Assembly (NCBI GenBank): GCA_934591815.1 | Contig: CAKTPV010000007.1 | Span: 38,919-102,918 of the forward strand | From: an uncultured Oscillospiraceae bacterium | GTDB lineage: Bacteria; Bacillota; Clostridia; Oscillospirales; Oscillospiraceae | DNA: 64,000 bases | Direction of reading: 5' to 3' | Shown here: positions 3,925 to 49,951 of the stretch, piece after piece | Layout: each line of letters opens with the position of its first letter | Position numbering within the stretch: position 1 is the first letter of the stretch | Position numbers and translations under genes: made by a program | Notes under the pieces: generated by a model | Told to the model about the DNA's origin: nothing | Seen by the model: the letters and a program-made list of their open reading frames with translations, nothing else | Databases searched by the model: none

Positions 3925-3980
3925 TGCAGCCCGTGCGCGAAGCACTTCCTTACAGCTACCATTCTTGGATTGTCGTCTAT

Positions 3981-15117: not shown

Positions 15118-15134
15118 GGTACATCCGCCTCCTT

Positions 15135-17216: not shown

Positions 17217-17303
17217 ATGTCCTCCGTCAGCGGCGCGGGAGCTTTCCACGCCGCACATCACATAGTTCCGATCCTAAAACGTCCGCAAAAAGGGACATTT
17301 TCC

Positions 17304-20858: not shown

Positions 20859-20880
20859 AAGCCGGTCTCGCTCCTTCCTG

Positions 20881-20897
20881 CCGTGCCGCTGGCACGG
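20881..20897 (-). other. Small hairpin in the pyc leader
   Basis: CCGTGCC and GGCACGG around a 3-base loop lie just upstream of the pyc ribosome-binding site. It could affect mRNA stability or translation. No known riboswitch class is recognisable. Confidence 0.4.
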
Positions 20898-20911
20898 TCT
20901 TGTTTTTCTCC

Positions 20912-20940
20912 ATTATACACGGATAGATGGCTCTGCGCCA
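20912..20940 (-). promoter_or_regulatory. Probable pyc promoter
   Basis: A perfect TATAAT (20912-20917) with a poor -35 (TGGCGC at 20935-20940, 17-bp spacing). The weak -35 may mean an activator is used. Confidence 0.4.
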
Positions 20941-21010
20941 GACGGAAAATGTGTAGAAATGCACAGGTTTCCCGTCAGGAGAATTTGGGACTTCTGCGAG
21001 GGGCGTGGAC

Positions 21011-21044
21011 AAAGAGCGCCCGCCTGTCCATGACAGGCGGGCGC
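21011..21044 (-). terminator. Terminator of the B12-riboswitch operon
   Basis: A perfect 13-bp stem (21016-21028 with 21032-21044) and 3-base loop is followed by TCTTT on the minus strand, seven bases after the last stop. It marks the end of the nine-gene operon. Confidence 0.75.
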
Positions 21045-21050
21045 AGTGAT

Positions 21051-22526
21051 TCAGTTGGTCATGCCGCCGCCGACATCCTTGCCCAGATCGCAGGTGTAGA
21101 CCCAGTGCAGCACATCACCGGAGCGCAGCCGATAGCGGGAGCAGCCGTAGTTGGGGAACCAGTCGTTGACGGTGTACATCCACCCGGACAGGCTGCCGGC
21201 GTCGAACTCGTAGAGGTTGCCGATACCCTCGATATAGGCGCTGTTGTAGAGGGGCGTGAAGCTGGACTCCATGTGGATCTTATTCTCCCGGCAGACCCGC
21301 TGGAGCACGTCAAAGGCGCTCTCCCCGGCGGCGAACGTGACCTGCGTCTCCGGCAGGAGCACGCCGTCCTCCGGCACCAGCGGCCGCTTGTTCTGCGCCA
21401 GCTTGTCCATGTTATCCAGCAGCACCTCGCAGGTGATGGAGATGGTGCAGGTGCAGTCGGCGGTATCGGCCACCTGTGCGTCCTCCGGCTCCACCGGCTG
21501 GGGCTTGCCCTCCGGCACCGGGTCGGTCTGGTAGCGATCCTGCTCCACGGCGGTCATGTCATATAAGCGGGACTGCCCCTTCGTAAAGCGCTGGCACGCC
21601 GCCAGCGCGTAGAATCCCTGCTCCGTGGCGATATTGTCCGGGGTGGTCTGCCCGGCGATGTGGCGGAAGCCGCCGCCCTCCACCGCGAAGGACGCCACGG
21701 CGTCCGGCACCGAGGCGCCGTCCTTGACGAAGCGGCTGTCGGTGAGGGGGTCGATGCCCAGCGATGTCAACGCCACCAGCACCTGCGCCGCGGACTCGCA
21801 ATTCTCCGTACCCATGCTGGCAAAGCCGCCGCTGGGGAGCTGGGCGTCAGACAGCAGCGCCAGCGCCTCATCCACCGCCGCCTGCACCGCCGCCTCCCCC
21901 GTGTAGGGGGCCAGCGCCGTCAGCGTCATGGCGGTGATGTCCACGTCCATCGTGTCGCCCATCAGCGCCCAGCCGCCGTCGGTGCAGCGGGCGGACAGCA
22001 GCTCCGCCACCAGCGCGGCGCGGGTCACAGGCTCCGCGCCCGTTGTGGGCGCAGGGTCGGGATATGCGCCGCAGTCCAGCGCGATCAGCGCCCAGATAGG
22101 GCCGTTCAGTCCCTGACGGCGGAGGTATTCCATGTCGCCCAGCCCCGCCGTCAGATCCACGCCCGCCACATCGGCGGCGTTGTGTCCGGCGGCGGTGACG
22201 CCCAGGATCGTCCGGGAGTTCTCCGAGGACTTATTGGCGTTCAGCCGGTTCCCCTCCGCCTGCGCCGTGTATTCCACGACAGACTCGTAGTAGACGGCGG
22301 CCGTCTCCCGCTCCAGCAGGCCGGCGGCGCGAAGCCCCACCACCGTCCAGTCGCCGTTCACAGGGCCGGCGGATGGGGCGTCCTGCGCCAGCAGGTACTC
22401 CCCGGTCTGCCGGAGGGCGGTCTGCCACGGGGCCTCCTCCCCGCCGGACGGCTGTGCGCCGCAGGCGGTGAGCAGCAGGCTCAGCAGCAGGATAAACGGC
22501 AGGATATACTTTTTCATGGTGGGCAT
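21051..22526 (-). CDS. Lipoprotein with alpha/alpha toroid and DUF4430 (intrinsic-factor-like)
   Basis: This 491-residue lipoprotein has a signal peptide ending in the lipobox LTAC (C22). Residues about 35-330 are a series of prenyltransferase/squalene-cyclase-type repeats (DGGWALMGDTMDVDITAMTL, GGFASMGTENCESAAQVLVA, GGGFRHIAGQTTPDNIATEQ), which form an alpha/alpha toroid. Residues 358-491 are a DUF4430 domain (ESAFDVLQ, SGWMYTVNDWFPNYG, SGDVLHWVYTCDLGKDVG). Toroid plus DUF4430 is the order of domains in animal intrinsic factor and transcobalamin, where cobalamin is held between the two. It is the last gene of the operon, 13 bases after the transglutaminase-like gene, and starts after AGGAGG. 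I infer a surface corrinoid-binding lipoprotein; binding is not shown by sequence alone. Confidence 0.8.
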   Translation of the reverse strand: MPTMKKYILPFILLLSLLLTACGAQPSGGEEAPWQTALRQTGEYLLAQDAPSAGPVNGDWTVVGLRAAGLLERETAAVYYESVVEYTAQAEGNRLNANKSSENSRTILGVTAAGHNAADVAGVDLTAGLGDMEYLRRQGLNGPIWALIALDCGAYPDPAPTTGAEPVTRAALVAELLSARCTDGGWALMGDTMDVDITAMTLTALAPYTGEAAVQAAVDEALALLSDAQLPSGGFASMGTENCESAAQVLVALTSLGIDPLTDSRFVKDGASVPDAVASFAVEGGGFRHIAGQTTPDNIATEQGFYALAACQRFTKGQSRLYDMTAVEQDRYQTDPVPEGKPQPVEPEDAQVADTADCTCTISITCEVLLDNMDKLAQNKRPLVPEDGVLLPETQVTFAAGESAFDVLQRVCRENKIHMESSFTPLYNSAYIEGIGNLYEFDAGSLSGWMYTVNDWFPNYGCSRYRLRSGDVLHWVYTCDLGKDVGGGMTN

Positions 22527-22539
22527 GGACAGTTCCTCC

Positions 22540-24786
22540 TTACAGAAATTCCCTATATTTCAGCCGCAGTCTTTCGCCCAGTCCCGCACGGCGCCATGTC
22601 CGCGTCCAGACCTGCTCCAGCAAATCGAGGGCGCGGCGGCGCTGGGACTCGTCCATGGGTGCGGCGCGGAAGCGTGCCTGCTCCCACAGGGCGGCCACCG
22701 CCAGATACGATGCCCGCAGATCCTCGTCCAGATAGGGGGCGTAGTCGGCGGGGGCGCAGTTGGCGATGGGCATTCCCTTGGCGCGCAGCACGTCCACGGT
22801 GTAGCGGAAGATGGCGTCGATGGCGGTTGGAACGTGGGGATCGGCGAACCGCGCCTTGCGGCGGGCGGTCTTTTTCCGCTCCCATATGATCCAGCCGGCG
22901 AACAGGCACACCACGGCGGCGGTCAGCAGAATGGACAGCGTCAGCAGGATGGTCAGCCGGTGCTTGAGCCAGAACTCCCGCAGAGTCCGGCTCAGATCGC
23001 TGTCCGGCGCGTCCGGCTCCTCGCTGTTCTCCGTGTCCGGCGGCGCCTGTCCCACAAGGCCGGAGATATCCCGATAGCTCTCCGCCTGCTCCATAATGCT
23101 GAGGTAGGGCGGCGCCACCTCGAAGGGCAGCCAGCCCACGCCGTCCTGATAGTACTCCACCCATGTGTGGCCGCTCTGCCCGGTGAGGGTCAGGGGCTGT
23201 CCCGGCGTCATGGACGCGGCGGCATCCCTCGTCACCAGAAAGCCCTCCACACAGCGGGCGGGGATGCCGTAGTAGCGGAACATCATGGCAGCCGCCGCCG
23301 CATATTGGGCGTCGCCGCCGGTCTGCGAACCGTCCAGAAAGTAGAGGATGGGGTCTGTACCGGCAGGCGGCGCAGACGCTGTCTCCGTATAGGTGGTGTA
23401 GGTGGTCAGGTAGAACAGGATGTTCTGCTTGGCGCGCTGGCAGTCGAAGTGGATCTGCCCCGGCTCCCTCTCCCAGCCGCTGAGCTTCTCCGCCAGGAAA
23501 CGGCGGATATCGTCGGGAACATCCGTGTAGTGTTGATAGGCAAAGCGGTTGTAGGCGCTCTCCGCCTCCAGAAAGGCGGCGTTGGCGGCGGTGTCCTCCG
23601 CCAGAGACGCACCGATACGGCGGTACTTGGTGAGAAGGCCCCCGGTGGTGCGGATCATATAGGCCCGCTGTCCCCGAAGGCCGGGCGCGGACAGCGCCGC
23701 CTCCCCCACGGCATTTTCGTCAGGTATAGGTGTATCATACCGCAATTCATACGGCGCGTAAAGATATTTCGACGAGGCGCCGGTATTTTCCACCGTCATG
23801 GTGTTATCCGCCTCCGGCAGCTCCGGCACGGCGGCGTGTGCCGCCGCTGTCAGCTGGGTCAGGGGGCGGAAGCCGTTCTTGTGCAGCCAGTAGAATGTGT
23901 CAGCGCTGTCCGCCAGCGCGGAGCTGTCCAGCGTCGTCCAGCGGCCATTCGCATACGCCTCCCCCACAAAGCCCCGCAGATAGCAGGAGGCGGGGTCGGT
24001 CATGGTCACGGCGAGCATCGGCGTCTCCGTCCGGGCGGGCGCAGCGGCGGTCAGGTCGCCTCCCGGCAGACCGGCGGCGGCATTACCCCCGTAGCGCAGG
24101 GCATCCACGCCTGCAAGGACGGCAGTTCTGCCATCGTCCAGCCACGCGGGATGGGCGGCGTCGCCGCTCCAGCCTCCCAGCACCGTGACCGCCAGCAGTA
24201 TCGCGGCGGCGGCGCGGCACCAGACGCGCAGGGCGGCAGCCCCCCTCCCGGTAAAGGCCAGAAGGTACAAAAGGAGCAGTGTCAGTGCCGCCAGCGCCAT
24301 CCACCACAGGGGCGCGGCGGGCGCCAGCACCACGACCGCCGCCGCCAGCGGCAGCGCCGTCAGGCACAGAGGCAGATAATGGGGACGCAGGACACAGCGG
24401 GCGCTCCACACACCCCAGAGGGCGGCGGCCACTGTCAGCAGCGCCGTCAGCGCCCCGTTGTCCTCCGGTGCGGCAAATACGGGATAGATCCGGGGGAACA
24501 CCTGCTGCCATGTGTGCAGCGCGGCATTCACCAGCGCAGCCAGCCCTCCGGCCAAGGCCTCGCCTGTCACCAGCAGCGCGGCGGCGCACAGGGCGACCCA
24601 GCACAGGGGCGGGAGCCACGGGCGGCGGCTGTTGGAAAAGGCCGTCACCGTCCCGGCGGACAGCAGGGCGGCCAGCAGGGGCAGCCATAGGGATACGGAC
24701 AGCTCCAAAAGTCCCGTCAGCAGCAGTGGGAAGGATGCCGCCAGCAATGCGGCAGGCACGAAACGCCGAAAAGCATCAGAGCGCAA
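22540..24786 (-). CDS. TgpA-like membrane protein with degenerate transglutaminase domain
   Basis: This 748-residue protein has about six N-terminal helices (up to residue 205), an outer transglutaminase-fold domain, a helix at about 620-650 and a C-terminal DUF4129-like tail. This matches the TgpA family that accompanies MoxR and DUF58. The catalytic Cys expected in the GxCxxxA motif is replaced: GGDAQYA has Asp at 492. His remains (H540 in SGHTWVEYY), and the usual FDPTP is FEVAPP (E556). It therefore looks catalytically dead, perhaps a binding or scaffold domain. A TTG start at 24786 is chosen because GGAGGG precedes it at good spacing and no nearby ATG fits. It overlaps the DUF58 gene by 11 bases. 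Confidence 0.8.
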   Translation of the reverse strand: MRSDAFRRFVPAALLAASFPLLLTGLLELSVSLWLPLLAALLSAGTVTAFSNSRRPWLPPLCWVALCAAALLVTGEALAGGLAALVNAALHTWQQVFPRIYPVFAAPEDNGALTALLTVAAALWGVWSARCVLRPHYLPLCLTALPLAAAVVVLAPAAPLWWMALAALTLLLLYLLAFTGRGAAALRVWCRAAAAILLAVTVLGGWSGDAAHPAWLDDGRTAVLAGVDALRYGGNAAAGLPGGDLTAAAPARTETPMLAVTMTDPASCYLRGFVGEAYANGRWTTLDSSALADSADTFYWLHKNGFRPLTQLTAAAHAAVPELPEADNTMTVENTGASSKYLYAPYELRYDTPIPDENAVGEAALSAPGLRGQRAYMIRTTGGLLTKYRRIGASLAEDTAANAAFLEAESAYNRFAYQHYTDVPDDIRRFLAEKLSGWEREPGQIHFDCQRAKQNILFYLTTYTTYTETASAPPAGTDPILYFLDGSQTGGDAQYAAAAAMMFRYYGIPARCVEGFLVTRDAAASMTPGQPLTLTGQSGHTWVEYYQDGVGWLPFEVAPPYLSIMEQAESYRDISGLVGQAPPDTENSEEPDAPDSDLSRTLREFWLKHRLTILLTLSILLTAAVVCLFAGWIIWERKKTARRKARFADPHVPTAIDAIFRYTVDVLRAKGMPIANCAPADYAPYLDEDLRASYLAVAALWEQARFRAAPMDESQRRRALDLLEQVWTRTWRRAGLGERLRLKYREFL

Positions 24787-25867
24787 CGGTCAGTCCCTCC
24801 TTTCCACGAAGCGCCGGCGGGGTGACGGTGCAGAACACCATGGCGGCGGACGGCTCCCCGGCGGGGCGCAGCGTCAGCACCAGCATCCGGGCGGCGTCGG
24901 CAGCCCGGCAGGACAGCAGGCGGGCAGGCACCTCCTCCGCTTCCACCTCTGTTTCGGCGGAGAGGATGTCCGGCAGCGCCTCTGTCAGCTCCTCCATGGA
25001 GGAGACGGCGCGGAAGGCCAATTCGCCGCCGGGACGATCCAGCCAAGCGATGCGGTGCGCCACGTCCTGTTGGCACAGGGCAGCGGAGACGGATACCACC
25101 GCCTCACCCAACGCCTCCCGTTCCGCCGGGGACGGCGGCGCGGCGGCGGAGTTGTCCAGCACCAGCAGCAGGGTGTCGTCCACCGGCAGGCCAAGCTGCC
25201 GCACCATCAGCGCGTCCGTTTTCTCCGACAGCTTCCAGTGGATGCTGCGCAGGCGGTCTCCGGCCTGGTACTCCCGGAGGCCAAAAGGCTCGCTGGGGTC
25301 GTCGCCGGGGCGGGTCATGGAGTATTCTGCGCTGTCCGCATCCGGCGTACAGTGCTCCGACAGGGACAGCGCGACCGGCCACAGCTCCGGCAGCACCAGC
25401 GCCGAGGCGGCGAGGGATACCGGCTGCCGTGCCGCCCACAGTCCCAGCAGATCAAAGACCGCCAGCGTCTGTACCGTCAGCTCCAGCTTGCCGCAATGGG
25501 GCAGCGCAAAGGCCGTGTCGGCGCAGCCCTCCCCCCTGCCGGGTACGGCGAGGCGCAGGGTCTTTTCCCACTGCTCGCCGGTGAGCAGGTCGCGGCAGCG
25601 CACCACGGCGCGCACCTGTGGGGCGGTGAAAAATCCGGCGTTGGTCACGGTGAGCGTTACCGGCAGCGGCTGCCCCTTCCCGCAGGAAAGGCCGGCGGTC
25701 AGCGCCGCCGACAGCCGCCGCCGGATACGGCGGGTCAGTACGAGCTCCCCCGCCGCCAGCAGCAAGCTGCCCAGCAGTATGCCGCCGGACACGTTGCCCG
25801 CGCCCAGCGCCCACGCCGCCAGCCACAGCAGCAGCCAGAGCGCAAACAAAATACGGTTTCCTGCCAT
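24776..25867 (-). CDS. DUF58 domain protein
   Basis: This 363-residue protein has two N-terminal transmembrane helices (about 5-45) and then a soluble region with the DUF58 hallmark REYQAGDRLRSIHWK (198-212). A von Willebrand A-like fold follows, with TLLLVLDNS resembling the start of a MIDAS strand. DUF58 proteins almost always sit between a MoxR ATPase and a transglutaminase-like membrane protein, exactly as here. The trio is thought to act as an AAA-driven assembly or maturation machine for envelope proteins. It starts two bases after the MoxR stop. Confidence 0.85.
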   Translation of the reverse strand: MAGNRILFALWLLLWLAAWALGAGNVSGGILLGSLLLAAGELVLTRRIRRRLSAALTAGLSCGKGQPLPVTLTVTNAGFFTAPQVRAVVRCRDLLTGEQWEKTLRLAVPGRGEGCADTAFALPHCGKLELTVQTLAVFDLLGLWAARQPVSLAASALVLPELWPVALSLSEHCTPDADSAEYSMTRPGDDPSEPFGLREYQAGDRLRSIHWKLSEKTDALMVRQLGLPVDDTLLLVLDNSAAAPPSPAEREALGEAVVSVSAALCQQDVAHRIAWLDRPGGELAFRAVSSMEELTEALPDILSAETEVEAEEVPARLLSCRAADAARMLVLTLRPAGEPSAAMVFCTVTPPALRGKEGLTVAL

Positions 25868-25869
25868 GG

Positions 25870-26805
25870 TCAGACGCGGTCAGGGCGGGGTACCGCCGCC
25901 AGCACCTCCGCCAGCACGTCGGAGGCCGACGTCTCCGTGATGCGCGCCTTGGCGGACAGGATGAGCCGGTGGGCGCAGACGTCGGAGAAGATGTACGCCA
26001 CATCATCGGGCAGCACATAGTCCCGCCCCTCCATCAGGGCGCGGCTGCGGCACATGCGGCAGACTGCCAGCGCACCGCGGGGGCTGATGCCCAGCGTCAC
26101 CAGCGGATGGGTGCGGCTGGCCTCCGCCAGATGGGTGATATATTCCAGCAGGGCGTCCGCCACATGGACGGCGCGGGCCTGTGCCTGCATTTCCAGCAGC
26201 GCGGCGGCAGAGGACACGGTCTCCACCGTCTCCAGCGGATCACCGGTACGGCGGTCGCGGAGGATATTCACCTGACTGGCAAAATCGGGGTAGCCCATGA
26301 CCAGACGGACCATGAACCGGTCCAGCTGCGCCTGCGGCAGCAGCTGGGTACCGGCGGAGCCCACCGGGTTCTGGGTGGCGATGACCACAAAGGGGTCGGG
26401 CAGCGGATGGGTCACCCCGTCCACCGTGACCTGCCGCTCCTCCATCACCTCCAGCAGCGCCGACTGGGTCTTGCTGGAGGTGCGGTTGACCTCGTCCGCC
26501 AGCAGCAGGTTGGTCATCACCGCGCCGGGCTGGTAGGTGAACGTGCCGCTGTCCCGCCGGTACAGGGAGAAGCCCACGATATCCGAGGGCAGCACGTCGG
26601 GAGTGAATTGGATACGGCCATATTGCAGGCCGAGGGCGCGGCTGAACGCCAGCGCCGTGGTGGTCTTGCCGGTGCCGGGTACGTCGTCCAGCAGCACATG
26701 GCCGCCGGAGAGGATCGTCATGAGGATCTTTTCCAACACGTCGTCCTTGCCCACAATGACCTTCTGCACCTCGTGCAGGATGCTTTCTACGCCGGTATGC
26801 ATCAT
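25870..26805 (-). CDS. MoxR-family AAA+ ATPase
   Basis: This 311-residue ATPase has Walker A PGTGKTTT (43-50), Walker B LLLADEVNRT (100-109), a sensor segment VIATQNPVGSAGT and a C-terminal lid domain. MoxR proteins act as chaperone-like ATPases on VWA/DUF58 clients. The start at 26805 (two consecutive ATG codons) follows AAGGAG; a longer in-frame start inside the upstream gene lacks a site. It is 10 bases after the membrane-anchored DUF4430 gene and two before DUF58. Confidence 0.93.
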   Translation of the reverse strand: MMHTGVESILHEVQKVIVGKDDVLEKILMTILSGGHVLLDDVPGTGKTTTALAFSRALGLQYGRIQFTPDVLPSDIVGFSLYRRDSGTFTYQPGAVMTNLLLADEVNRTSSKTQSALLEVMEERQVTVDGVTHPLPDPFVVIATQNPVGSAGTQLLPQAQLDRFMVRLVMGYPDFASQVNILRDRRTGDPLETVETVSSAAALLEMQAQARAVHVADALLEYITHLAEASRTHPLVTLGISPRGALAVCRMCRSRALMEGRDYVLPDDVAYIFSDVCAHRLILSAKARITETSASDVLAEVLAAVPRPDRV

Positions 26806-26815
26806 CGTTTCTCCT

Positions 26816-28906
26816 TTACCATTCTCTGTAATAATTGCCGCTGGACTCGCCGTAGGCGCCGCCGGAGCCGTCATAGGCGCCGATGTCCTTGCCCATGGCC
26901 AGTGTGAAGCGCAGGCGCAGCACCGCGCCGTCCTGCGGCGCGTAGGATGCCATGCTGATGCCGGGATAGCCCCCGTTGACGGAGAACATCCACCCCGACC
27001 AGCGGTAGAAGTCGAATTCCCCCAGACGATCCTCCGAGGCAGGCGTCGGGTCGTATCCGGCGCCCTGTGCGTCCATGCCGTCCGCCACGATCAGTTCCTT
27101 CAGCTCCGGGTCGATCGAATAGCCGGTGCAGATGCCGGGGCCGCAGATGGCGGACAGGTATTCGCCCCGATCCAGGGCGGCGGTGTAGCCGTACTGCGCC
27201 AGCGCCTCCTCCAGAATGGTAAGGGCGCTGGTGCCGCCGGGAACGGTGATGGCGGTGGCCGGCACCAGCATACCAAGGCCCACGGTGGTGGCCTCCACGC
27301 TGATGGTGACGGTGATCTCCCCCGCCTTGTAGTACACCGTCCATGTGCGGGCGGCGCTGACGCCCTCATTGTCCACCGCGGTGACGGTGATGGTGTTGGC
27401 GCCCTCGTACAGCAGGTAGGCATCGTACCCGAACAAGCTGCCGGTCTGGGCAGTGGGGGCGGGGATGGCAGTACCGTTGACGGTGACGGTGAAATTGTTG
27501 CTGTAAAGCTGCTCACCCTTTCCGCTGCGTCCCTCCACCAGCAGAAGAACGGCGGGGTTCTTCAGCACCAGGCCGTCCGTCAGCCCCATGGTGGTGCCGT
27601 CTGCCTCGATCTGGGCGGAGATGGTGGGTGGGAGCAGCGCCTCGCCGCTGTCGGTGCGCCGGAAGCGCAGGATATAGCTGTATTCCCGGGAAGCGCCGTC
27701 CGAGTCGGTGTAGTACAGCGTCATAGTCACGGGAGCCCGGGCGTTCAGGGTCACGGCATAGCCGCCGTCGGCTCCCGGCGAAAGGCGGCGTCCGTCCAGA
27801 CGCAGCTCCTCCAGCCTCTCCAGGCCGGTGACGCCCTCCACGGACACCCAGACGCGGGCGCTTTCACTGCCGCCCTCCACGGTGACGGCCTCCGAGCCGT
27901 CGGCGGGTGTGTCACCGGTGATGGTGCGGGTCTGCCCGTCGGAGAACGCGGTGTCGATGCGGAAGGACGGGGCGGTATAGGTGACGGTGTATGTCTCCGT
28001 CAGGCCGATGCTCCCGCCGGCCTCCACGGTGATCTCATTATTTCCGGCACGCAGCACGGCGGTGTAGAGATCGCCGCTGCCGGTAACGGTACTGCCGTTG
28101 ACACGGACGGTCTGTACCGGCTGCTGCATATCGCCCTGTACCGCCACCGCCGAAAATGTCAGCGTCCGCTCCGCCACAGTCAGCCCGCGGAGGGAGGCGT
28201 GATCCGACGCCCGCTGGACGATCAGCAGCCACTGTCCGTCCAGATAGTACAGGGTGTAGGTGCGTGACGCCTTCACAACGCGCTCAGCCGTCTGGTACTG
28301 GGCGGTGACGGTGACGGTGTTGGCGCCGCCGGTCAGGGTAAGCGTTCCGGCGGCGGTATTGGCGGCATAGTCCGTGGCCGCGCCGTTGACGGCGACGGAC
28401 AGTCCCAGCACCTGCGCCTCCGGCTTCAGATGGCGTATGGTGAAGGGGTAGGCGGCTGCCGTCACTCGGTCGCCATCCACGATGGAGGTGGTGAACCACG
28501 CATCGCCCTCCTCTGGCTGCTCCGGCTGGCCGCCGGTCTCTCCGCCGGTATCCCGATCGGGCAGCTGGCCGCCGGAGCCACCGCCTCCGTCTATGATATT
28601 CTGTATATCATCCAGCCCGCCCTTATCCGACGGTTCGGTGGGCGGCATATCCGGCGGCTCCTCCGGCGCGTCGTCCGATATATCCGGCAGCGTGTTGGGC
28701 AGCCCGCCGGTGAGAGAGGCGTCGGTGCCCGCCAGTGCCTCCCCGTCGTACAGCAGCTCGCCCTCCGTCACCAGCGTGCGGGAGGCGGCCTGCACCTCCG
28801 TCTGCGGTGGGGCGGACGGCTCCATGCGGAGCGCCAGCCACACGGAGGCCAGTGCCAGTACCAGTGCCGCCGTCAGGCGCAGCGCCTGTATGACCCATTT
28901 TTTCAT
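26816..28906 (-). CDS. Membrane-anchored surface protein ending in DUF4430
   Basis: This 696-residue protein opens with a hydrophobic N-terminal helix (MKKWVIQALRLTAALVLALA) that may be an uncleaved anchor. An acidic, Pro/Gly-rich linker follows (about 60-135), then several beta-sandwich modules resembling cadherin-like or Ig-like repeats. The C-terminal DUF4430 domain (531-696) contains SALTILEEALAQYGY, WSGWMFSVNGGYPGI and LAMGKDIG. The last two motifs line up with those of the operon's lipoprotein. Start ATG 28906 overlaps the preceding stop (ATGA) and has AAGGAG. I infer an envelope-tethered corrinoid or ligand-binding protein. It lacks the toroid domain, so the binding mode would differ. 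Confidence 0.75.
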   Translation of the reverse strand: MKKWVIQALRLTAALVLALASVWLALRMEPSAPPQTEVQAASRTLVTEGELLYDGEALAGTDASLTGGLPNTLPDISDDAPEEPPDMPPTEPSDKGGLDDIQNIIDGGGGSGGQLPDRDTGGETGGQPEQPEEGDAWFTTSIVDGDRVTAAAYPFTIRHLKPEAQVLGLSVAVNGAATDYAANTAAGTLTLTGGANTVTVTAQYQTAERVVKASRTYTLYYLDGQWLLIVQRASDHASLRGLTVAERTLTFSAVAVQGDMQQPVQTVRVNGSTVTGSGDLYTAVLRAGNNEITVEAGGSIGLTETYTVTYTAPSFRIDTAFSDGQTRTITGDTPADGSEAVTVEGGSESARVWVSVEGVTGLERLEELRLDGRRLSPGADGGYAVTLNARAPVTMTLYYTDSDGASREYSYILRFRRTDSGEALLPPTISAQIEADGTTMGLTDGLVLKNPAVLLLVEGRSGKGEQLYSNNFTVTVNGTAIPAPTAQTGSLFGYDAYLLYEGANTITVTAVDNEGVSAARTWTVYYKAGEITVTISVEATTVGLGMLVPATAITVPGGTSALTILEEALAQYGYTAALDRGEYLSAICGPGICTGYSIDPELKELIVADGMDAQGAGYDPTPASEDRLGEFDFYRWSGWMFSVNGGYPGISMASYAPQDGAVLRLRFTLAMGKDIGAYDGSGGAYGESSGNYYREW

Positions 28907-34968: not shown

Positions 34969-35002
34969 GGTTTTTTCTCCTGTTCACGGGCGGCGCGGCA
35001 TC

Positions 35003-39307: not shown

Positions 39308-39337
39308 AGAAAGAACCTCCTGTTGAAATACACGGGG

Positions 39338-39436
39338 ATCGTTCTCTGCGCTTTCACGGGGAAAACGCACAGAACGATGCCCGTCAAAACGACAGCTTCC
39401 GCTGTCTCCCCCGCTATGCGGTGGGGGAGACAGCGG
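39338..39436 (-). other. Two hairpins between the cohesin and second dockerin genes
   Basis: In the 145-base gap a perfect 14-bp stem (39399-39412 with 39423-39436) follows the cohesin stop. A 13-bp stem with one mismatch (39338-39350 with 39366-39378) lies before the next ribosome-binding site. Neither has an adjacent T-run in the direction of transcription, so they look like stabilising or processing hairpins, not a full terminator. No internal promoter is convincing. Confidence 0.5.
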
Positions 39437-39452
39437 ATATGCTGTTTTGCCC

Positions 39453-41999: not shown

Positions 42000-42014
42000 A
42001 TGTCTTTCCCCTCC

Positions 42015-45000
42015 TTAGTTGTTAGCGGTGAGGGAGGTCAGCTCCCCCAGATAGAAGGCGTAGATGATCTCCGCGTCCTTTGCCGTCACCTGACCGTCGC
42101 CGTTGATATCGGCGGCGTCCTGCTGGCTGAGGTCGGCGGTAAGCTTGCCGTTGGCGAAGGCATAGACCAGCGCAGCGTCCACATCGTCCACCAAGCCGTC
42201 GTTGTTCACATCGCCCTTGGCGTACTTCTGCGCCACGGTGATGGGCTGCTCAGCGGAGAAGTCGCCGTACTTCACGGTGACGGCGGTGGTCTCCGCCTTG
42301 AGCGCCTTGTCGTTCTCCATGGTGTAGTCCTGGATCTCCACCTCGGTGTTGTCGTCATACACCGCCACCACCGTCATGCCGGCGGGATCGAAGTCCTCGC
42401 CCGCAAGATACGCGGTCTTGGCGGGCTGCGCGGTGATCTTCAGGCCCGTCAGCACCGGCTCTGCACCGGCCTGCCACTTCAGGATGGGATAGCCGCTGTT
42501 GAGGCCCTTGGTATCCGCCGTGAAGCTGTCGCCCAGCTCGGAGGCCAGCGCCTTCAGCTCACCGGCGGTCTTGGCGGTGCCCAGACCGGTGACGCCGTAC
42601 TTGGGGCTCTCGCCGGAGACAGTACCCGTCAGATAGAAGCTGTTGACATAGTGCGCCGCCGTCTTGTCCGGGGACAGACCGCCCACATAGGAGGCGTTGC
42701 CGTCCGTGCCGATGACTGCACCGACGCTGTAGCAGTTGGTCAGCGTGGCGCCCGCCGTGTTGCTGAAGCCGGAGCCGCAGATGCCGCCCAGATAGCACTC
42801 ATTGGCGGCGCTGCTGCGGATCGTGCCGGTGGCGTAGCAGTCGGTGATGACCGCGCCGGTGGCGGTGTAGCCCGCGATGCCGCCGGCATGCTTATTGCTG
42901 GTGACATGCACGGCGCTCCAGCACTGGGTGATGGATGCCTTGTCGTACATATAGCCTGCGATGCCGCCCGCCTGTGCGTTTCTATTGTTGGTGCAGGTCA
43001 CGCTGCCGGTGATGCCCAGCCGCGTAACGGCGGCTCCTTCGTTCAGGTAGCCAAACAGGCCCGCGGGATAGCTGCTGCTGTTGATATACAGATTGCGGAT
43101 GACGTGACCCTGTCCGTCGAAGGTACCGTAGAACTTCTTCAGCGGTGTCCAATCATAGCCCGCCAGCTCGATATCGGCGGTGAGCTTGGCGCTGCTTTTG
43201 CCGTCGGTGGCGGCGAACCATGCCAACTCCGCAGCGGAGCTGATGAGGTAGACGCCGTTGTCATCCTTCTGGGGCTCGGTGCTGGCTGCGCCGTCCCAAG
43301 GATCGGCGCCGACAGTCTGCATGGAGGCCATGACGGTCAGAACGCCGTCCTGCACCTTGTCCGCGTCGGCGCTGCCCAGCAAGAAGCTGCCGCGCTCCAC
43401 CGCGTAGCCATCCTTGCGCAGGGTGTACAGATAGGTGCCGTAGCCCAGCAGGAAGCGTCCGTCCGCACCGGGCTCCACGACCTTGCCGCTGTTGTCGGTG
43501 ATGGTGACGGCCACGCCGTCCAGCACGCTGCCGGCATCGTCGGAGATGCGCAGCGCCACGTTAAAGAACACCTTGCGGTAGACCGTGACCGCAGCGTCGG
43601 CATAGTGGTTCATGTAATAGTTGACGGTGACGGCGTTGAAGTTGGTGCCCACGCCGGTATCCGTCATGCCGTACAGGAATGCGAAGGGGTTGGCGGCGGA
43701 ATACATACTGCCGTAGGTGTAGCCGTTGGTGAATACGCACACCGCCGTGTCCGCACCGTCGGCAAAGGCCAGATCCTCCGGGATGGTCACGGTGACGGAG
43801 GAGTTGTCCATCCGCTGGTACTGACCCAGCGTTCCGTCGAACTTGCTCTCACCGTTGTGATAGGTGGGCTTGAACAGGGTGGGGTTGAAGATACCGGAGA
43901 TCTTGTTGACGCCGCGGAACATACCGCTGAACGTCAGCTTCACCTGATCGCCGGGCATGATGTCCTCACCCTTGTGGCTGGCGTTCTCCGCGGTGATGGT
44001 GACCTTGGCCACCCGCACCAGCCGGTAGCTGACACCGCTCTCGTCGGTCATCCGGAGGATGACGGTGCCGCCCATGCCGTTGCCGGCGGTGTTGAAGGCC
44101 TCCAGCGGCACGGTGTACCGGCCATCCTCACCGGCGGAGGCGGTCTGGAAGGCGGAAACACTGGTCACCATGGCGTCGTTGGTGGCGACGAAGGCGTACT
44201 CCACCATGACGCTGCCGGTACTCTTCACAACGGCAAAGCGCAGGGCGGGATCGGTCTCGCCGGCCTCGTAGTACCATGTGTCGTAGTTGTAGTCCCACTC
44301 CATGGAACGGGTGGTGGTGACACCGTGCGCCATGTTGAAATCCACATCCGCGTCGGCGCTGCCGTGGGTCACGCCGGTACCGCCCACCACGATCACGCCC
44401 ACGCGCTGGGGCTGGGTGGCGGGATACAGGCCGCCGTGGCTGCCTGCGGCCTGCGTGCCGGCATTGGGGTTTGCCTCGGTGACATCCACGCTGTCATAGT
44501 AGACGGTGATGATGGAATCCTTCGTGCCGGGGGTCACATCTGCCCAGTTGGCGGTGGTATTGCCGCCGTTGACCGTCTGGATCCGGGCGTCGCCGTCCCC
44601 CATCACGTTCCAGTGGAAATCGGGCTCCACCATGATATTGCCGGCGTCGGAGTTGATGATCTGCCAGTGGCGGTAGGCCCGGACACGGGTGGTGCCGTCC
44701 AGCACCTCAAAGCCGCTGGGATCCAGATTCACCTGCAGATCGGCCTCGTCGCGGGTGGCGGTAACCGTACCCAACTGGCTGAAGTCGTGGGACAGGCGAT
44801 CCGTCGCGGCGCTGGCGGTAAGGTTCAGCTCCCGATCCGCGGTCAAGCCGCTGAGCCAACCGGCGCGGGTCACGTGGCCGGGCTGGCTGAGACGCCACGT
44901 GTAGTTGCCGCTGCTCTTGGAGATGAAGTAGTCGGCGGACTTGGTGTCGCCGCTGATGCGCCAGCCGTCGTCACCCTCCGTCACGCCCAGAGGCTCCACC

Positions 45001-48000
45001 TCCGTGGTGTTGAAGTTGTTCCACTGGAAGTACAGGCCGAAGGCAGCTTCGGCGGGCACGGTGACGGTGAGCTTCACGCCGGTATTGATGGTCAGGCCCT
45101 TGGTTCCGGCGCTGGAGCCGGCACGGAAGGTCTGGTTGATGGCCTGCGTGAAGATGTAACCGTCAATATCGGGATAGGCATAGGTATTGTACAGGCAGGC
45201 GTTGCCGGCCGCGTACAGCACCGTGGGATAATAGGCGTAGTTGCCCCGGACATAGGGCGTACCCATGACGCAGGAGGTCTTCATGATGGGGCAGTCCACC
45301 TGCACATGGTACTCCTCCGCCGTGAAATAGGTGTTGTCCGTCTTGCGGCTGCTGACATAGAAGGAGTTGCACTGGAGGTAGACGTTGGTGCCGCCGCCGG
45401 CGCCGCCGTCCACGTTGCTGTCGGTGGGCAGCTCCAGCGTCATGCCGCCCAGCTCCACATCGTAGGCGCCGGTCTCCGCGTTCTTGGCAAAGGCGCGGTA
45501 GGCGTAGCGTCCGGCGGTGAGGCTGGCATAGAACATCTGATAGCCGTCGACCAGTTGGCCGTCAGCAGGCGCATAGGCTTCCTGTCCCTCCGGCAGGGTG
45601 TCGGTGAAGCTGCTGTACAGGAAGCAGTCCTTCAGCTCCTCGCCCAGCACCTCGCTGCCCTGCGCGTCCGTCTTCACGCTGTACAGCTTGATGACGGGAT
45701 AGCCGCCGGTGTAGTCCTTGCTCACATAAAATGTGAAGTTCATGCGGGGCGCGTCCTCCACATGGAGGGTCAGCGTCCAGGTGTCCTTGGAGAAGTGCTT
45801 CCCGTCGTGGGAGGCGCAGAAGCGATAGGTATAGTCGCCCGCCTCCAGCTCGGTAAGCTGGATGGTGGTAGCGCCGAACATCGCCTCAGAGAAGCTCTGC
45901 ATGGCGCCCCATGTCTGGCCGCCGTCGGTGGAGCGCTGGTAGTAGTAATTCTTGTAGTTCAGCGTCTGGCCGTCCACGGGTGCGAAGATCTTGCCCGCCT
46001 GCAAATCGCTGAGCAGATACGCCATGCCCGTCTGGACGGTGGCCTCGGTGGCCGCGGGATACCCCTCCTTGCGGGTAGGCACAGGGGCATCGCTCTTGCC
46101 GCAGGTGTCGCAGACACCGTCGTCGTTGCCGTCCTTGTGCTCCGCCGCCGTCTGGCCCTTCAGGACGGGGGCGGGGCAGCTATCGGCATAGGCGTCGCCC
46201 AGTGCCGCGGCGCTGAGGCCCTCCGCTGCGGAGAAGGCAGTCCCCTTGACGGTGACGGTCGCGGTGGACGCGCCGCTGGTCTGCACCGCGCTGTCCAGAT
46301 AGTAGCAGTTGTTCGCCGTCAGGGTGGTCTTTTCGTTGTCCGCGACCTCGCCGACCAGCGCACCCATGCGGGCCTGATCGTCATACTGACCGCTGACAGT
46401 GCCGGTGGCGTAGCAGTTGGTCAGCGTGATCGTGCTGGCGTGGCTGCTTTCCCCCGCGAGACCCACGATGCCGCCGGCGGCCTGCTGGATCTTCTGCGTC
46501 TTGTAATAGAAGCTGATCGCGCCGGTGTTATAGCAGTTGGTGATGTTGACCTCCGCGCTGGCGTTGCCGACAATGCCGCCGACGCCGCGGAATTGATGGT
46601 GCCAGCCGCGCAGCAGGATCGCACCGGTATTCCAGCAGTTCTCGATGGTCGTCGTCCCATGCGAGGCGACCGCCACGATGCCGCCGGTGTAGCCCTGATA
46701 GCCGGTGATGTCGGCGCTATTGGAGCAGCCGCGGATCACCGTGTCCTGCGCGCTCGCCACCACGCCGGCATGACCGTAGATCTGATCGTTGGTGGGCTCG
46801 CCGGTCAGCGTCACATAGTTGTGGCAGTTCTCGATGGTGCAGGTGCGTTTGGTGGAAATGCCACAGGCGCGGCCCACGATACCCGCCACATAGCGGGTGA
46901 TGGCCTTGGCCTCGCCGTACACGCTGACGTTCTTGATGGCCGCGCCGTCGCACAGGCCGAACAGCGCGGTATAGTAGCTGCTGACGTTGGCAAGGCTGCC
47001 CTTGTTCTCCAGATACAGCCCGGTGATCTTATGGTTCTGTCCGTCGAAGGTGCCGCGGTAGTCCTGATTGTTGGCCTGATCGCCGATGGGCGTCCAGGGC
47101 GTTGCCGCTCTGCACACGCCACTCAGGTCGATATCGGCGGTGAGACGGGCGTTCAGCTCGGGCTTGCCGCTGTTCACCTCGTCGGCGAACCACTTGAGTT
47201 GTCCGGCGGTGGCGATCTCGTAGTAACCGTCCTCCGCCTGTGCGGGCTTGTTGACATCCGTCACCGTCACGGTACACTTGGCCATGAACGCGCCGTCATC
47301 CGTGGTCACGGTGATCAGCGCCGTACCCTCGGCAATACCGGTGACCAGACCGCTGCGGTCTACCTGCGCCACGGCGGGTGCGCCGCTTCGCCACGTCACC
47401 TTCTGGTTCGTGGCGTTCGCAGGCTCCACCGCAGCCGTCAGCTGCGCCGTGCCGTTGCGGTCCACCGTCAGCTCCGAATGGCTCAGCGTCACGCCGGTAA
47501 CAGCCACCTCACCGGTGCCGCCGCCGGGCTTGGTGTTGTCACCCACCACGAAGCCGAAGCAGTTGAAGTACTCGTAGTTGTTGTCGTTGTCCTCCGCCGC
47601 GATGTACAGCCCCTTCTCCAGCAGGAACGCGGCGGGCAGCGCCAGCGTATGGCTGCCGTCCCCGTTCTCCGTTACGGTGTACGCGTAGTCGGAGCCGGCG
47701 TAGTAGCTCCAGTCCACCTCGCCGTCGGCATTGAAGAGTGCGCAGTACGCCGCGATGTTGATGGCGAAGTCCGCCGGATAGGTGACATACACGGTCTCCG
47801 TGCCCTTGGGAACGGTGACGGTGTAGACCTTCTTCTCGCCGGGGTTGCTGTAGTGCGCCACCTCCATGGTGCTCTCCGCGATGTGGTAGAGGTAATCCGT
47901 CCCCTCCGCATCCAGAGAGATGCTGGCAAAATCGAAATCCTTATAATACTCGTTGGGGTCGAAGGGCTTCGCACCGCCGCCCACCGTCACTCTTGCGGTG

Positions 48001-49301
48001 GCCGGTGCGTAGCAGGCGTCCTCCGTACCGGCGTTGGGATCCGTCGCCAGCAGGTAGTAGGTACCCTCCTTCTCAAACGTATAGGTGTAGCTGCTGCCGT
48101 CGCCGCTGTGTGCCGCGACCTCGCCCACCTCCTGCCAGTCGGCGTCATAGACCTTCACGGTCAGGCCGGTGATGGGCTCAAAGCTCTCCGTGCCGCCGTC
48201 CGCCACAGAGCGCGTGTCGTACTTCTGGGTCTGGACGGTCAGGCTGCCGCCGGGTCTGACGGCGTAGCTGTCCCGATCGAAGGCAGCAAAGGCGCCGCTT
48301 TGCCAGAAGCTCCAGTTGCTGAACATGGCCACGTCGATGGTGTCCCCGTCAGACAGCAGCACATAATCCGCCGTGGCGCCCCAGCCGGCGCTCATCAGTG
48401 GGTACACATGGTTGCGGTAGTACATGAGGTTCTCGTCGTGACCCCAGAACTGCTGCATATACATGGACGTGGCGCTGCCGGTGATGTTCAGCGCCAGACT
48501 GCTGTCGTCATACGGCTGACCGCCGGTCATGTCGGTGACGCCCACGCCGCCGTCGTGGCCCCTGATGATCTCGTCACCATTGATGACCTGCTCCGGCGTA
48601 AGGCCCAGATAGTACACACCCAGCAGGTAGAGGTACAGGTGCAGAGCGGTAGGGCGCTTTACCACCTGATCGTCCACATAGCCGCCCTGTCCGTTCTCCG
48701 TATGGTAGCGGTAGAATTCGGACAGATCCTGCTTGTCCAGATCGAAGTAGGGCACGTCCAGCTCCAGATGGGACAGCACCGTGCCTTCGTTGCCCACCAG
48801 CGGGATGCCGTCGTGGGAAACGGTGACATAGACCTTTACGGAGGCGGCGTCCGTCTCATCGTAGCCGTACTGGGCTGCATCGCCGTCGGCCGCCTCGTTC
48901 ACCGTAATGGTGAGCTGCACGGACGCCGCAGCCTTCTCCGCACAGGTGGCGGTGATGGTGGGCGTGTATGTACCCGCAGTCGGGTTGGTGAAGGACAGGA
49001 TGGCTCTGCCGTCCTTGTCAGTGGTCACCTTGGTCTGCGTACCGTAGTCGCCGCCGTCCAGCGTGTAGGTCAGCCCATGGCTGCCGCTGTCCTGAAACAG
49101 CTCATCCAGTTGGACGGTCAGCAGGCCGCCTGCGGCCACCTCATACGCGGTCTTGGCGCCGTCCTTCACGGTCACGCAGGCTGCCGCGCCGCCGGACACA
49201 TCCGACGTGGCGAACACCGTCTGCGGCACCAGAGACAGGCACAGCACCAGACTCAACAGCATGGCCAATACACGGTTGGTCATGCTTCTTTTATGGTTCA
49301 T
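42015..49301 (-). CDS. Giant dockerin-bearing surface protein, first gene of the B12 operon
   Basis: This 2428-residue secreted protein has a signal peptide (RVLAMLLSLVLCLSLVPQTVF). A beta module (about 35-135) precedes a region at about 155-330 that looks like a divergent DUF4430 (VKVYVTVSHDG ... GWGATADYVLLSDGD). A BIG2 Ig-like domain (598-680) and a GLUG/beta-helix block (about 692-1045) follow. Several beta-sandwich modules come next, then a second GLUG block (about 2010-2270), an Ig-like module (KTAYLAGEDFDPAGM) shared with the other dockerin protein, and a C-terminal dockerin with calcium loops DVNNDGLVDDVD and DINGDGQVTAKD. Start ATG 49301 follows AGGAGG. It is the first gene behind the riboswitch. 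Its ligand is unknown. Confidence 0.8.
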   Translation of the reverse strand: MNHKRSMTNRVLAMLLSLVLCLSLVPQTVFATSDVSGGAAACVTVKDGAKTAYEVAAGGLLTVQLDELFQDSGSHGLTYTLDGGDYGTQTKVTTDKDGRAILSFTNPTAGTYTPTITATCAEKAAASVQLTITVNEAADGDAAQYGYDETDAASVKVYVTVSHDGIPLVGNEGTVLSHLELDVPYFDLDKQDLSEFYRYHTENGQGGYVDDQVVKRPTALHLYLYLLGVYYLGLTPEQVINGDEIIRGHDGGVGVTDMTGGQPYDDSSLALNITGSATSMYMQQFWGHDENLMYYRNHVYPLMSAGWGATADYVLLSDGDTIDVAMFSNWSFWQSGAFAAFDRDSYAVRPGGSLTVQTQKYDTRSVADGGTESFEPITGLTVKVYDADWQEVGEVAAHSGDGSSYTYTFEKEGTYYLLATDPNAGTEDACYAPATARVTVGGGAKPFDPNEYYKDFDFASISLDAEGTDYLYHIAESTMEVAHYSNPGEKKVYTVTVPKGTETVYVTYPADFAINIAAYCALFNADGEVDWSYYAGSDYAYTVTENGDGSHTLALPAAFLLEKGLYIAAEDNDNNYEYFNCFGFVVGDNTKPGGGTGEVAVTGVTLSHSELTVDRNGTAQLTAAVEPANATNQKVTWRSGAPAVAQVDRSGLVTGIAEGTALITVTTDDGAFMAKCTVTVTDVNKPAQAEDGYYEIATAGQLKWFADEVNSGKPELNARLTADIDLSGVCRAATPWTPIGDQANNQDYRGTFDGQNHKITGLYLENKGSLANVSSYYTALFGLCDGAAIKNVSVYGEAKAITRYVAGIVGRACGISTKRTCTIENCHNYVTLTGEPTNDQIYGHAGVVASAQDTVIRGCSNSADITGYQGYTGGIVAVASHGTTTIENCWNTGAILLRGWHHQFRGVGGIVGNASAEVNITNCYNTGAISFYYKTQKIQQAAGGIVGLAGESSHASTITLTNCYATGTVSGQYDDQARMGALVGEVADNEKTTLTANNCYYLDSAVQTSGASTATVTVKGTAFSAAEGLSAAALGDAYADSCPAPVLKGQTAAEHKDGNDDGVCDTCGKSDAPVPTRKEGYPAATEATVQTGMAYLLSDLQAGKIFAPVDGQTLNYKNYYYQRSTDGGQTWGAMQSFSEAMFGATTIQLTELEAGDYTYRFCASHDGKHFSKDTWTLTLHVEDAPRMNFTFYVSKDYTGGYPVIKLYSVKTDAQGSEVLGEELKDCFLYSSFTDTLPEGQEAYAPADGQLVDGYQMFYASLTAGRYAYRAFAKNAETGAYDVELGGMTLELPTDSNVDGGAGGGTNVYLQCNSFYVSSRKTDNTYFTAEEYHVQVDCPIMKTSCVMGTPYVRGNYAYYPTVLYAAGNACLYNTYAYPDIDGYIFTQAINQTFRAGSSAGTKGLTINTGVKLTVTVPAEAAFGLYFQWNNFNTTEVEPLGVTEGDDGWRISGDTKSADYFISKSSGNYTWRLSQPGHVTRAGWLSGLTADRELNLTASAATDRLSHDFSQLGTVTATRDEADLQVNLDPSGFEVLDGTTRVRAYRHWQIINSDAGNIMVEPDFHWNVMGDGDARIQTVNGGNTTANWADVTPGTKDSIITVYYDSVDVTEANPNAGTQAAGSHGGLYPATQPQRVGVIVVGGTGVTHGSADADVDFNMAHGVTTTRSMEWDYNYDTWYYEAGETDPALRFAVVKSTGSVMVEYAFVATNDAMVTSVSAFQTASAGEDGRYTVPLEAFNTAGNGMGGTVILRMTDESGVSYRLVRVAKVTITAENASHKGEDIMPGDQVKLTFSGMFRGVNKISGIFNPTLFKPTYHNGESKFDGTLGQYQRMDNSSVTVTIPEDLAFADGADTAVCVFTNGYTYGSMYSAANPFAFLYGMTDTGVGTNFNAVTVNYYMNHYADAAVTVYRKVFFNVALRISDDAGSVLDGVAVTITDNSGKVVEPGADGRFLLGYGTYLYTLRKDGYAVERGSFLLGSADADKVQDGVLTVMASMQTVGADPWDGAASTEPQKDDNGVYLISSAAELAWFAATDGKSSAKLTADIELAGYDWTPLKKFYGTFDGQGHVIRNLYINSSSYPAGLFGYLNEGAAVTRLGITGSVTCTNNRNAQAGGIAGYMYDKASITQCWSAVHVTSNKHAGGIAGYTATGAVITDCYATGTIRSSAANECYLGGICGSGFSNTAGATLTNCYSVGAVIGTDGNASYVGGLSPDKTAAHYVNSFYLTGTVSGESPKYGVTGLGTAKTAGELKALASELGDSFTADTKGLNSGYPILKWQAGAEPVLTGLKITAQPAKTAYLAGEDFDPAGMTVVAVYDDNTEVEIQDYTMENDKALKAETTAVTVKYGDFSAEQPITVAQKYAKGDVNNDGLVDDVDAALVYAFANGKLTADLSQQDAADINGDGQVTAKDAEIIYAFYLGELTSLTANN

Positions 49302-49393
49302 GTGATCTCCTCCTTATCAGGATTTTCTCTATCTCTAACGCATACGCGGAAAAAGGAGTAAGGCTCCCTTGGCCAATGCGGCGGAGGTATGTC

Positions 49394-49452
49394 CTTTCCA
49401 TAAAAAGAGAGGAGGCGGAAGAGGCTTTCGCCTCTCCCGCCCTTATGGAAAG
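49394..49452 (-). terminator. Second leader hairpin, terminator-like
   Basis: An inner 12-bp stem (49414-49425 with 49430-49441) is closed by a GAAA tetraloop on the minus strand and followed by a CT-rich stretch with TTTTT. An outer 10-bp stem (49394-49403 with 49443-49452) encloses it. It lies about 95 bases before the first gene. It may be a second attenuator or a readthrough checkpoint after the riboswitch terminator. Confidence 0.6.
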
Positions 49453-49552
49453 CAGACGGCTGGAAAAACCGTCTCGACTTGACTTATCACATGCAGAAAA
49501 AACGCCGGTCCCCCTCCGTTCCGCGGAGAATGACCAGCGGGATCTGCGACAG

Positions 49553-49592
49553 AAAAAGCACCGGCGTTTTCCCATACGGGAAACGTCGGCGC
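49553..49592 (-). terminator. Riboswitch expression platform: intrinsic terminator
   Basis: A strong hairpin (49558-49592, a stem of about 15 bp with one mismatch and one bulge) is followed directly by TTTTT on the minus strand. It stands about 50 bases after the aptamer and 250 before the first gene, as expected for B12-induced premature termination. Confidence 0.75.
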
Positions 49593-49639
49593 ACACCCCT
49601 GCCTATCCATACACCACGGAGAGAGCGCCCGCTGTTGGC

Positions 49640-49850
49640 GATCCTCTGCTATGTAAGTCTTCTGACTCGCGCCGTGGAGAGCTCTCTCCTCGTTCGTGAC
49701 CTGTCTTCTCACAGACATGACGTCTGCAATGACGGACTTTCGTCCCAGCGGCTCACGCCGCCTCGGTACGTTCTTGCGCTTACAGTGCCGTTCGCGTGGG
49801 GCCTTGCACCCCGTTCCTTTGAAGCCGCCGCCTGACCCCTATCGGAGTCG
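49640..49850 (-). ncRNA. Cobalamin (B12) riboswitch
   Basis: Read on the minus strand, the leader shows the order of conserved segments of the cobalamin aptamer. These are GATAGGGGTC near the 5' end, AAGGAACGGGGTGCAAGGCCCC in the middle (GGTGCAAG at 49803-49810), GGCACTGTAAG at 49779-49789, GTCATTGCAGACG, and the B12 box AGTCAGAAGACTTAC at 49653-49667. Cobalamin riboswitches normally switch genes off when adenosyl- or another cobalamin is plentiful. A covariance-model search against the cobalamin family would settle the exact ends. Confidence 0.85.
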
Positions 49851-49900
49851 TTGCGGCAAGCGGCTGCACAGCATCTTTGGATCTTGTATTTAATTGGCCT

Positions 49901-49914
49901 GCGGCTTTCGCCGC
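49901..49914 (-). other. 5'-end hairpin of the leader RNA
   Basis: GCGGC-GAAA-GCCGC, a 5-bp stem with a GNRA loop, falls within the first bases of the predicted transcript and may protect its 5' end. Confidence 0.5.
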
Positions 49915-49922
49915 TGCATATC

Positions 49923-49951
49923 ATTATATGTTGGAAAAAACAGGATGTCAA
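49923..49951 (-). promoter_or_regulatory. Perfect consensus promoter of the B12 operon
   Basis: On the minus strand TTGACA (49946-49951), exactly 17 bp, TATAAT (49923-49928). Transcription would begin near 49916, about 65 bases before the aptamer and 615 bases before the first start codon. Such a strong promoter suggests heavy expression when the riboswitch allows it. Confidence 0.9.

Follow-up and report, generated by a model that had tools for sequence, protein, structure and literature searches.

The 64-kb window analysed here (64,000 nucleotides of contig CAKTPV010000007.1, assembly GCA_934591815.1) carries on its minus strand a row of nine open reading frames (ORFs; g1 to g9, running from 49301 to 21051) headed by a cobalamin riboswitch. 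We conclude, at roughly three chances in four, that this row is a corrinoid-repressible operon with which a Gram-positive, Oscillospiraceae-like bacterium captures vitamin B12-type corrinoids at its surface. We posit that under low cobalamin the riboswitch would let transcription through, as the OFF behaviour of its family suggests; that the lipoprotein g9 and the anchored protein g5 would bind the corrinoid; that the g2 cohesin would retain g1 and g3 in the complex by way of their dockerins, modules whose co-occurrence is observed and whose pairing is presumed; and that the ligand would then be handed to an energy-coupling factor (ECF) importer of the CbrT type, which belongs to the same row in many relatives and would be encoded elsewhere in this genome. 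The weakest step concerns g6 to g8, a MoxR-DUF58-altered-transglutaminase trio that may represent a specialised branch of a common trio: the role of a membrane-bound assembly or loading device seems the likeliest one, and we assign it only tentatively.

The genes are closely packed, with gaps from g1 to g9 of 15, 145, 34, -4, 10, 2, -11 and 13 bases, the gap of 10 before g6 being counted from an internal ATG at 26805 (it becomes -59 if the first ATG is used). The promoter ahead of the aptamer is the sole 12/12 match to the consensus among five promoter-like sites in the 11.6 kb scanned there (2.4 in shuffles), and the hairpin that likely serves as the expression platform emerges from folding; the pattern scan did not list it. 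ORF, promoter, riboswitch and fold analyses thus bear out a first-pass annotation of this DNA, which had described a perfect promoter, a cobalamin aptamer and a terminator ahead of nine co-directional genes spaced in this way.

Against RF00174 the aptamer scores 24.7 bits (E 7.6e-4 when 1.7 kb are searched) and so misses the gathering score, 31.5, a curated cut-off that stands for no biological feature. It retains the conserved core and the B12 box, its closing P1 helix is intact and its fold has a z-score of -3.99. R1, a covariance model for which 13 riboswitches from other genomes served as the training set and from which the window element was excluded, finds it with 61.5 bits (E 2.4e-14) as the sole match in 64 kb; R1 holds only 11 base pairs and thus describes mostly sequence. 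Could the riboswitch nevertheless have decayed or lost its function, with the nine genes not forming a single B12-regulated transcript? The sub-gathering score, the 145 bases between g2 and g3 and a single weak promoter-like site inside the row (minus strand, 23762) would fit such a view. Against it stand the preserved core, B12 box and helix, the score with an independent model, the perfect promoter upstream of the aptamer, a count of promoter-like sites in 20700-38600 no higher than the shuffled mean (2 versus 2.0), and the riboswitches that also precede the corresponding operons of relatives, so that we regard this alternative as highly improbable.

The most telling product is g9. A lipobox, a DUF4430 match of 60.2 bits in Pfam and an AlphaFold 2 model (mean predicted local distance difference test score, pLDDT, 85.9; predicted template-modelling score 0.64) agree with its first-pass description as a toroid-DUF4430 lipoprotein, and the model displays the two-domain architecture, toroid plus beta domain, of intrinsic factor and transcobalamin. 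When this model is compared with the PDB by Foldseek, the 15 best matches are all transcobalamin, intrinsic factor or haptocorrin (E 2.7e-11 to 1.4e-8), in alignments of 470 to 491 columns that cover both domains at 11-15% identity. Template-modelling scores reach only 0.31-0.42 of the query, with a root-mean-square deviation near 21; we interpret this as the two domains being placed differently about a linker that the model predicts with low confidence. Relative to the vertebrate carriers, g9 is a bacterial lipoprotein whose binding is predicted, and many relatives split the two halves onto separate genes. A linker of the form DPVPxGKPxPVEP precedes the DUF4430 domain in g9 (residues 335-347) and in 33 of 80 related loci, including separate DUF4430 proteins; it is perhaps a docking strand. 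The DUF4430 domain of g5 stays below the Pfam cut-off (20-22 bits versus 23.8); a profile that had been trained on relatives scores it at 71.5 bits (E 4e-23). From fold and linkage together, we infer that g9 and g5 bind corrinoid.

Among the large secreted proteins, the dockerins of g1 and g3 score 43.2 and 43.8 bits (Pfam cut-off 22.9), and the g2 cohesin scores 38.7 bits (cut-off 24.1) on the isolated domain, a full-length Pfam scan of g2 not having listed it. The one cohesin, the two dockerins and the MoxR/DUF58/TgpA-like trio named by the first-pass annotation are therefore confirmed, the former three by scores above curated cut-offs and the trio by domain matches and an intact P-loop (PGTGKT at residue 66 of g6). 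Of its three or four DUF4430 or DUF4430-like proteins, g9 and g5 stand and g1 and g3 do not: g3 has no match with Pfam or the trained profile, and the candidate domain in the N-terminal part of g1, similar by eye in the order of its motifs, was rejected on an hhalign probability of 0.2% (with a low-diversity alignment), the lack of a Pfam match, a mean AlphaFold 2 pLDDT of 59 and the lack of any Foldseek match with E < 0.5. Residues 147-495 of g1 resemble the N-terminal part of the toroid-dockerin proteins of relatives.

The case for corrinoids rests largely on these relatives. We compared the best 80 of at least 584 confirmed matches to an alignment of 13 g9-like proteins, a set that includes near-copies (for example three Ruminococcus bromii strains), many short flanks and seven loci on which R1 was trained. 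On these 80 loci and four extended ones R1 gives 72 matches at E 0.1 or better. A same-strand riboswitch lies at most 10 kb upstream in 47 of the 80 loci, in 40 of the 73 outside the training set, and in 30 of the 45 with at least 5 kb of flank. In the non-training loci the density is 86 riboswitches per Mb upstream and 16 per Mb downstream, with two matches in 984 kb of the other strand; the genome-wide background in 50 whole genomes is 1.03 per Mb, an approximate yardstick since genomes were scanned with RF00174 under stricter filters and loci with R1. In the three R. bromii genomes, the only RF00174 match (below the cut-off in two of the three) lies directly upstream of a DUF4430-toroid-dockerin gene. 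The window's exact operon type is uncommon in the one family sampled, as g9 has no match at E 1e-80 or better in 400 of its genomes; toroid and DUF4430 genes occur, on two contigs, in one of seven genomes from the genus whose pyruvate carboxylase comes closest. The term Oscillospiraceae-like itself derives from this enzyme, which shares 81% identity with its counterpart in a genome from the family of an uncultured Pseudoflavonifractor. Separately, one locus of Candidatus Formimonas warabiya (L099, G011:C1 about 5455521-5519686; G and L numbers are our handles for genomes and loci) holds about ten cobalamin riboswitches in ~64 kb around a DUF4430-ECF locus, and in L003, L004, L007 and L076 DUF4430, a g3-type propeller and the toroid form a single protein with a riboswitch ahead.

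The genes that follow point to uptake. In annotated examples a DUF4430 gene precedes a CbiQ/EcfT-type gene (PF02361; two above the cut-off, one just below), followed in two of them by a fused ATPase-ATPase-S-component protein. Across the loci, 58 of the 65 with at least 1 kb of room have a same-strand EcfT homologue no more than 3 kb downstream, 50 of them within 100 bases. The S component of L049, the sole one compared, has one significant match among solved structures, 6FNP (E 2e-7), which is ECF-CbrT, the vitamin B12 importer of Lactobacillus delbrueckii (PMC5997447). Linkage in many genomes, this CbrT-like S component and the predicted fold of g9 thus favour both the riboswitch control and the corrinoid-capture role that had been proposed from the window's letters.

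These importer genes also bear on a quite different view of the operon. Cohesin and dockerins, like the fn3, Big, GLUG and cadherin-like domains here, are typically met in adhesins and in glycan complexes, and with a second structural aligner, VIA-align, the g9 toroid also matches terpene cyclases and sugar epimerases; toroid and DUF4430 might then be generic binding folds in a surface adhesion or glycan-binding complex, a relative of the cellulosome or amylosome, placed under B12 control through a B12-replaceable function or a niche. However, Pfam scans of the nine proteins reveal no catalytic carbohydrate-active domain (the GH85_C and Glucodextran_B matches are non-catalytic domains), and the relatives' module stands directly before an ECF transporter whose one compared S component matches CbrT. 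We consider an adhesive or glycan-binding purpose quite unlikely.

Docking parts recur at these loci as well. The dockerin, cohesin, toroid and DUF4430 profiles come from iterative training on these very loci, with only some matches checked against Pfam; a cohesin profile from a single seed gave no matches and worked once Pfam-identified seeds were added. The ORF picker drops genes lying beneath a longer antisense ORF, so that six of the 80 loci show no plus-strand DUF4430 gene. With these profiles, a plus-strand dockerin appears in 30 loci, a cohesin in 20 and a toroid-dockerin fusion in 27, and Pfam places dockerin above its cut-off in eight of ten selected proteins and cohesin above in one and below in two more. 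Riboswitch, cohesin and dockerin occur together in 13 of the 80 loci, 12 of which share the order riboswitch, toroid-dockerin, cohesin, DUF4430; where a cohesin is present, the DUF4430 gene starts within 7 bases of the cohesin stop in 17 of 20 loci. The cohesins of relatives are membrane-anchored (that of L035 begins with a hydrophobic, membrane-like segment), and three of the DUF4430 proteins examined from the compact row (L035, L052, L075) have a lipobox-like start. This arrangement suggests an intrinsic-factor-like clamp whose halves, in many Clostridia, reside on separate proteins: a dockerin would tie the toroid half to a cohesin anchored in the membrane, next to a lipoprotein with DUF4430. 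In the window, toroid and DUF4430 are fused, and large dockerin-bearing surface proteins are added. The joint linkage of riboswitch, dockerin, cohesin and DUF4430 for which the first-pass annotation had proposed searching related genomes does recur; the ECF link, the compact operon form and the altered transglutaminase go beyond that annotation.

The trio g6-g8 resembles the common MoxR-DUF58-TgpA trio in its three-gene order and intact P-loop and departs from it in the transglutaminase core, at the position of the family's catalytic Cys. All ten module-linked transglutaminases (the window, G630, G003 twice, G632, G136, G206, G870, G986 and L051) have Ser or Asp there, and 37 of the 43 others have Cys (P 4e-7 by Fisher's test, which takes no account of relatedness). 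The loss of this Cys in g8 argues against covalent maturation by the transglutaminase, and maturation by the trio, as proposed in the first-pass annotation, finds no support. The module-linked trio has the look of a branch whose enzyme turned into a component for binding or structure. Besides the window, MoxR, DUF58 and TgpA accompany DUF4430 and/or the toroid in G630, G003 (two places), G632, G136, G206, G986 and G870. Far from consistently lacking a riboswitch, such MoxR-type operons carry one upstream in eight of the nine cases with sufficient upstream sequence, the window counted. In G986 a single row reads riboswitch, EcfT, EcfA, S component, DUF4430, MoxR, DUF58, TgpA, toroid lipoprotein, DUF4430 and g3-like protein; in one place of G003 the riboswitch lies directly before MoxR, with the toroid 9 kb further on behind a second riboswitch; and the g3-like protein of G206 ends in SLH domains, an anchor, where g3 has its dockerin. 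The operon of G630 is notable in its leader: three tandem cobalamin riboswitches lie directly before it and a fourth a few kb upstream (L090 8330-9178, 12485-12621, minus strand).

Sixty MoxR loci were collected by similarity; three of the four with the module have a riboswitch, and so do none of the 56 without it, that is, with no DUF4430 and no toroid in a stretch of 3.4 to 20 kb. In those 56, the profiles used for the 80 loci pick up a single dockerin and no cohesin. The nine module-linked MoxR proteins fall, in a tree of 64, within one group of 17 rows (support 93/84), with two label changes versus 8.6 in shuffles. Nested in this group, L160, L163, L167, L172-L175 and L196 carry MoxR-DUF58 and no module, riboswitch or detected TgpA; another surface partner may have replaced the module there.

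It could be argued that g9 and g5 capture corrinoid while the cohesin-dockerin proteins and the MoxR trio serve separate surface functions and are co-located by chance, since the dockerins of the window are on g1 and g3 and none is on g9, and since 56 of the 60 fetched MoxR trios lack a corrinoid link. Yet cohesin and dockerin stand beside DUF4430 in 20 and 30 of the 80 loci, the former mostly at the minimal distance noted above; toroid and dockerin are joined in a single protein in 27; and eight operons besides the window unite trio and module and share the loss of the catalytic Cys. Chance co-location therefore strikes us as unlikely, albeit less so than an adhesive or glycan-binding purpose.

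Several observations nonetheless pull away from a single corrinoid-capture operon. The aptamer falls under the Rfam cut-off and hence is missing from the gathering scan. For g9, VIA-align lists toroid folds only, and searches by sequence or profile with g9, its DUF4430 domain or the DUF4430 alignment find no B12 carrier in the PDB. The 64-kb window contains no ECF homologue (EcfT, EcfA or CbrT-like S component). Among the relatives, a same-strand riboswitch upstream is missing from 33 of the 73 loci outside the training set, for some of them through a short flank, and G870 has module and trio without a riboswitch in the 20 kb scanned. Six of the 43 unlinked transglutaminases also lack the Cys, and four of these (L198, L200, L204, L206) have a divergent motif; the other eight members of the 17-row MoxR group have neither module nor riboswitch, so not every member of this clade is corrinoid-linked.

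Capture at the cell surface as part of B12 uptake is known, and several systems resemble parts of the proposed one. ECF-CbrT resembles the importer part of the relatives' loci, with EcfT, two fused ATPases and an S component that 6FNP matches in the one case compared; the available part of its description mentions no extracellular binder (PMC5997447), and the window has no ECF gene. BtuG/BtuB capture in Bacteroides likewise involves surface lipoproteins for B12, as far as the excerpts go (PMC6143338, PMC10404256); the proteins as described are other ones, from organisms with an outer membrane, and the window has no BtuB-type partner. Cellulosomes and amylosomes also bear cohesin and dockerin modules on secreted proteins, according to an excerpt (PMC6118326), whereas Pfam scans detect no dockerin-bearing carbohydrate-active enzyme among the nine proteins. 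In L. rhamnosus, "Additional lipoprotein component of putative cobalamin ECF transporter" is the table label of one small protein, and a DUF4430 protein, LGG_02295, lies beside rtpR (PMC9963975), so a B12 link was suspected earlier; the accessible sections offer these table labels and a neighbourhood remark, with no mention of docking, toroid or riboswitch. In the open-licence literature searched, "cobalamin riboswitch" is not found together with dockerin or with cohesin, DUF4430 is named in six papers, NCBIfam and PADLOC give no match that names the system, and this assembly is not described.

A bolder view, for which we see distinctly less than an even chance, unites all parts in a "corrinosome", a riboswitch-controlled, cellulosome-like device in which intrinsic-factor-like modules, often split into toroid and DUF4430 and joined by cohesin-dockerin contacts, would clamp corrinoids and feed a CbrT-type ECF importer, while energy-driven assembly or loading would fall to the MoxR ATPase together with a transglutaminase that is catalytically dead. 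If it is true, (i) cellulosome docking would have a second, vitamin-scavenging use, and (ii) the vertebrate carrier with its two domains would look like a bacterial two-protein device in fused form. A few dockerins are present in some non-cellulosomal Clostridia, for which the available text states no reason (PMC6118326); the locus and its relatives offer a possible one. They also provide concrete candidate corrinoid receptors of Gram-positive gut bacteria whose parts are separable, put an architecture resembling that of intrinsic factor next to B12 riboswitches and importers in bacteria, and, through the Cys-to-Ser/Asp signature that marks a specialised MoxR trio, give a handle on the role of that trio.

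Table. The nine genes and the regulatory elements flanking them, in order of transcription; positions refer to the window.
Feature	Positions	Strand	Support or remark
Promoter, TTGACA-17-TATAAT	49923..49951	-	12/12 consensus matches
Cobalamin riboswitch aptamer with closing P1 helix (core 49820-49654)	49640..49885	-	RF00174, independent model, fold
Terminator-like hairpin with U-run, likely expression platform	49498..49539	-	fold of 49490-49620, z -4.71
Second terminator-like hairpin, 5' of g1	49413..49442	-	
g1, secreted, 2428 aa; Big and GLUG repeats, C-terminal dockerin	42015..49301	-	
g2, secreted, 848 aa; N-terminal cohesin, fn3 repeats	39453..41999	-	PF00963
g3, secreted, 1434 aa; cadherin-like domain, PQQ-type propeller, C-terminal dockerin	35003..39307	-	
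g4, 2021 aa; signal sequence, weak GLUG match (below cut-off), C-terminal membrane segment	28903..34968	-	
g5, N-terminally anchored; C-terminal DUF4430 domain	26816..28906	-	
g6, MoxR-type AAA ATPase	25870..26874	-	likely start 26805
g7, DUF58 protein	24776..25867	-	PF01882, 29.9 bits
g8, TgpA-like membrane protein; transglutaminase core, Asp in place of catalytic Cys	22540..24786	-	
g9, lipoprotein; toroid and DUF4430 domain, intrinsic-factor-like	21051..22526	-	
Terminator-like hairpin 3' of g9	21016..21044	-	

Two further features lie outside the operon on the same strand: a row of two large proteins with ABC2_membrane_3 domains at 12293-17261, and at 3918-3965 an ssnA RNA element (RF03031, 70.5 bits), the sole Rfam gathering match in the window.

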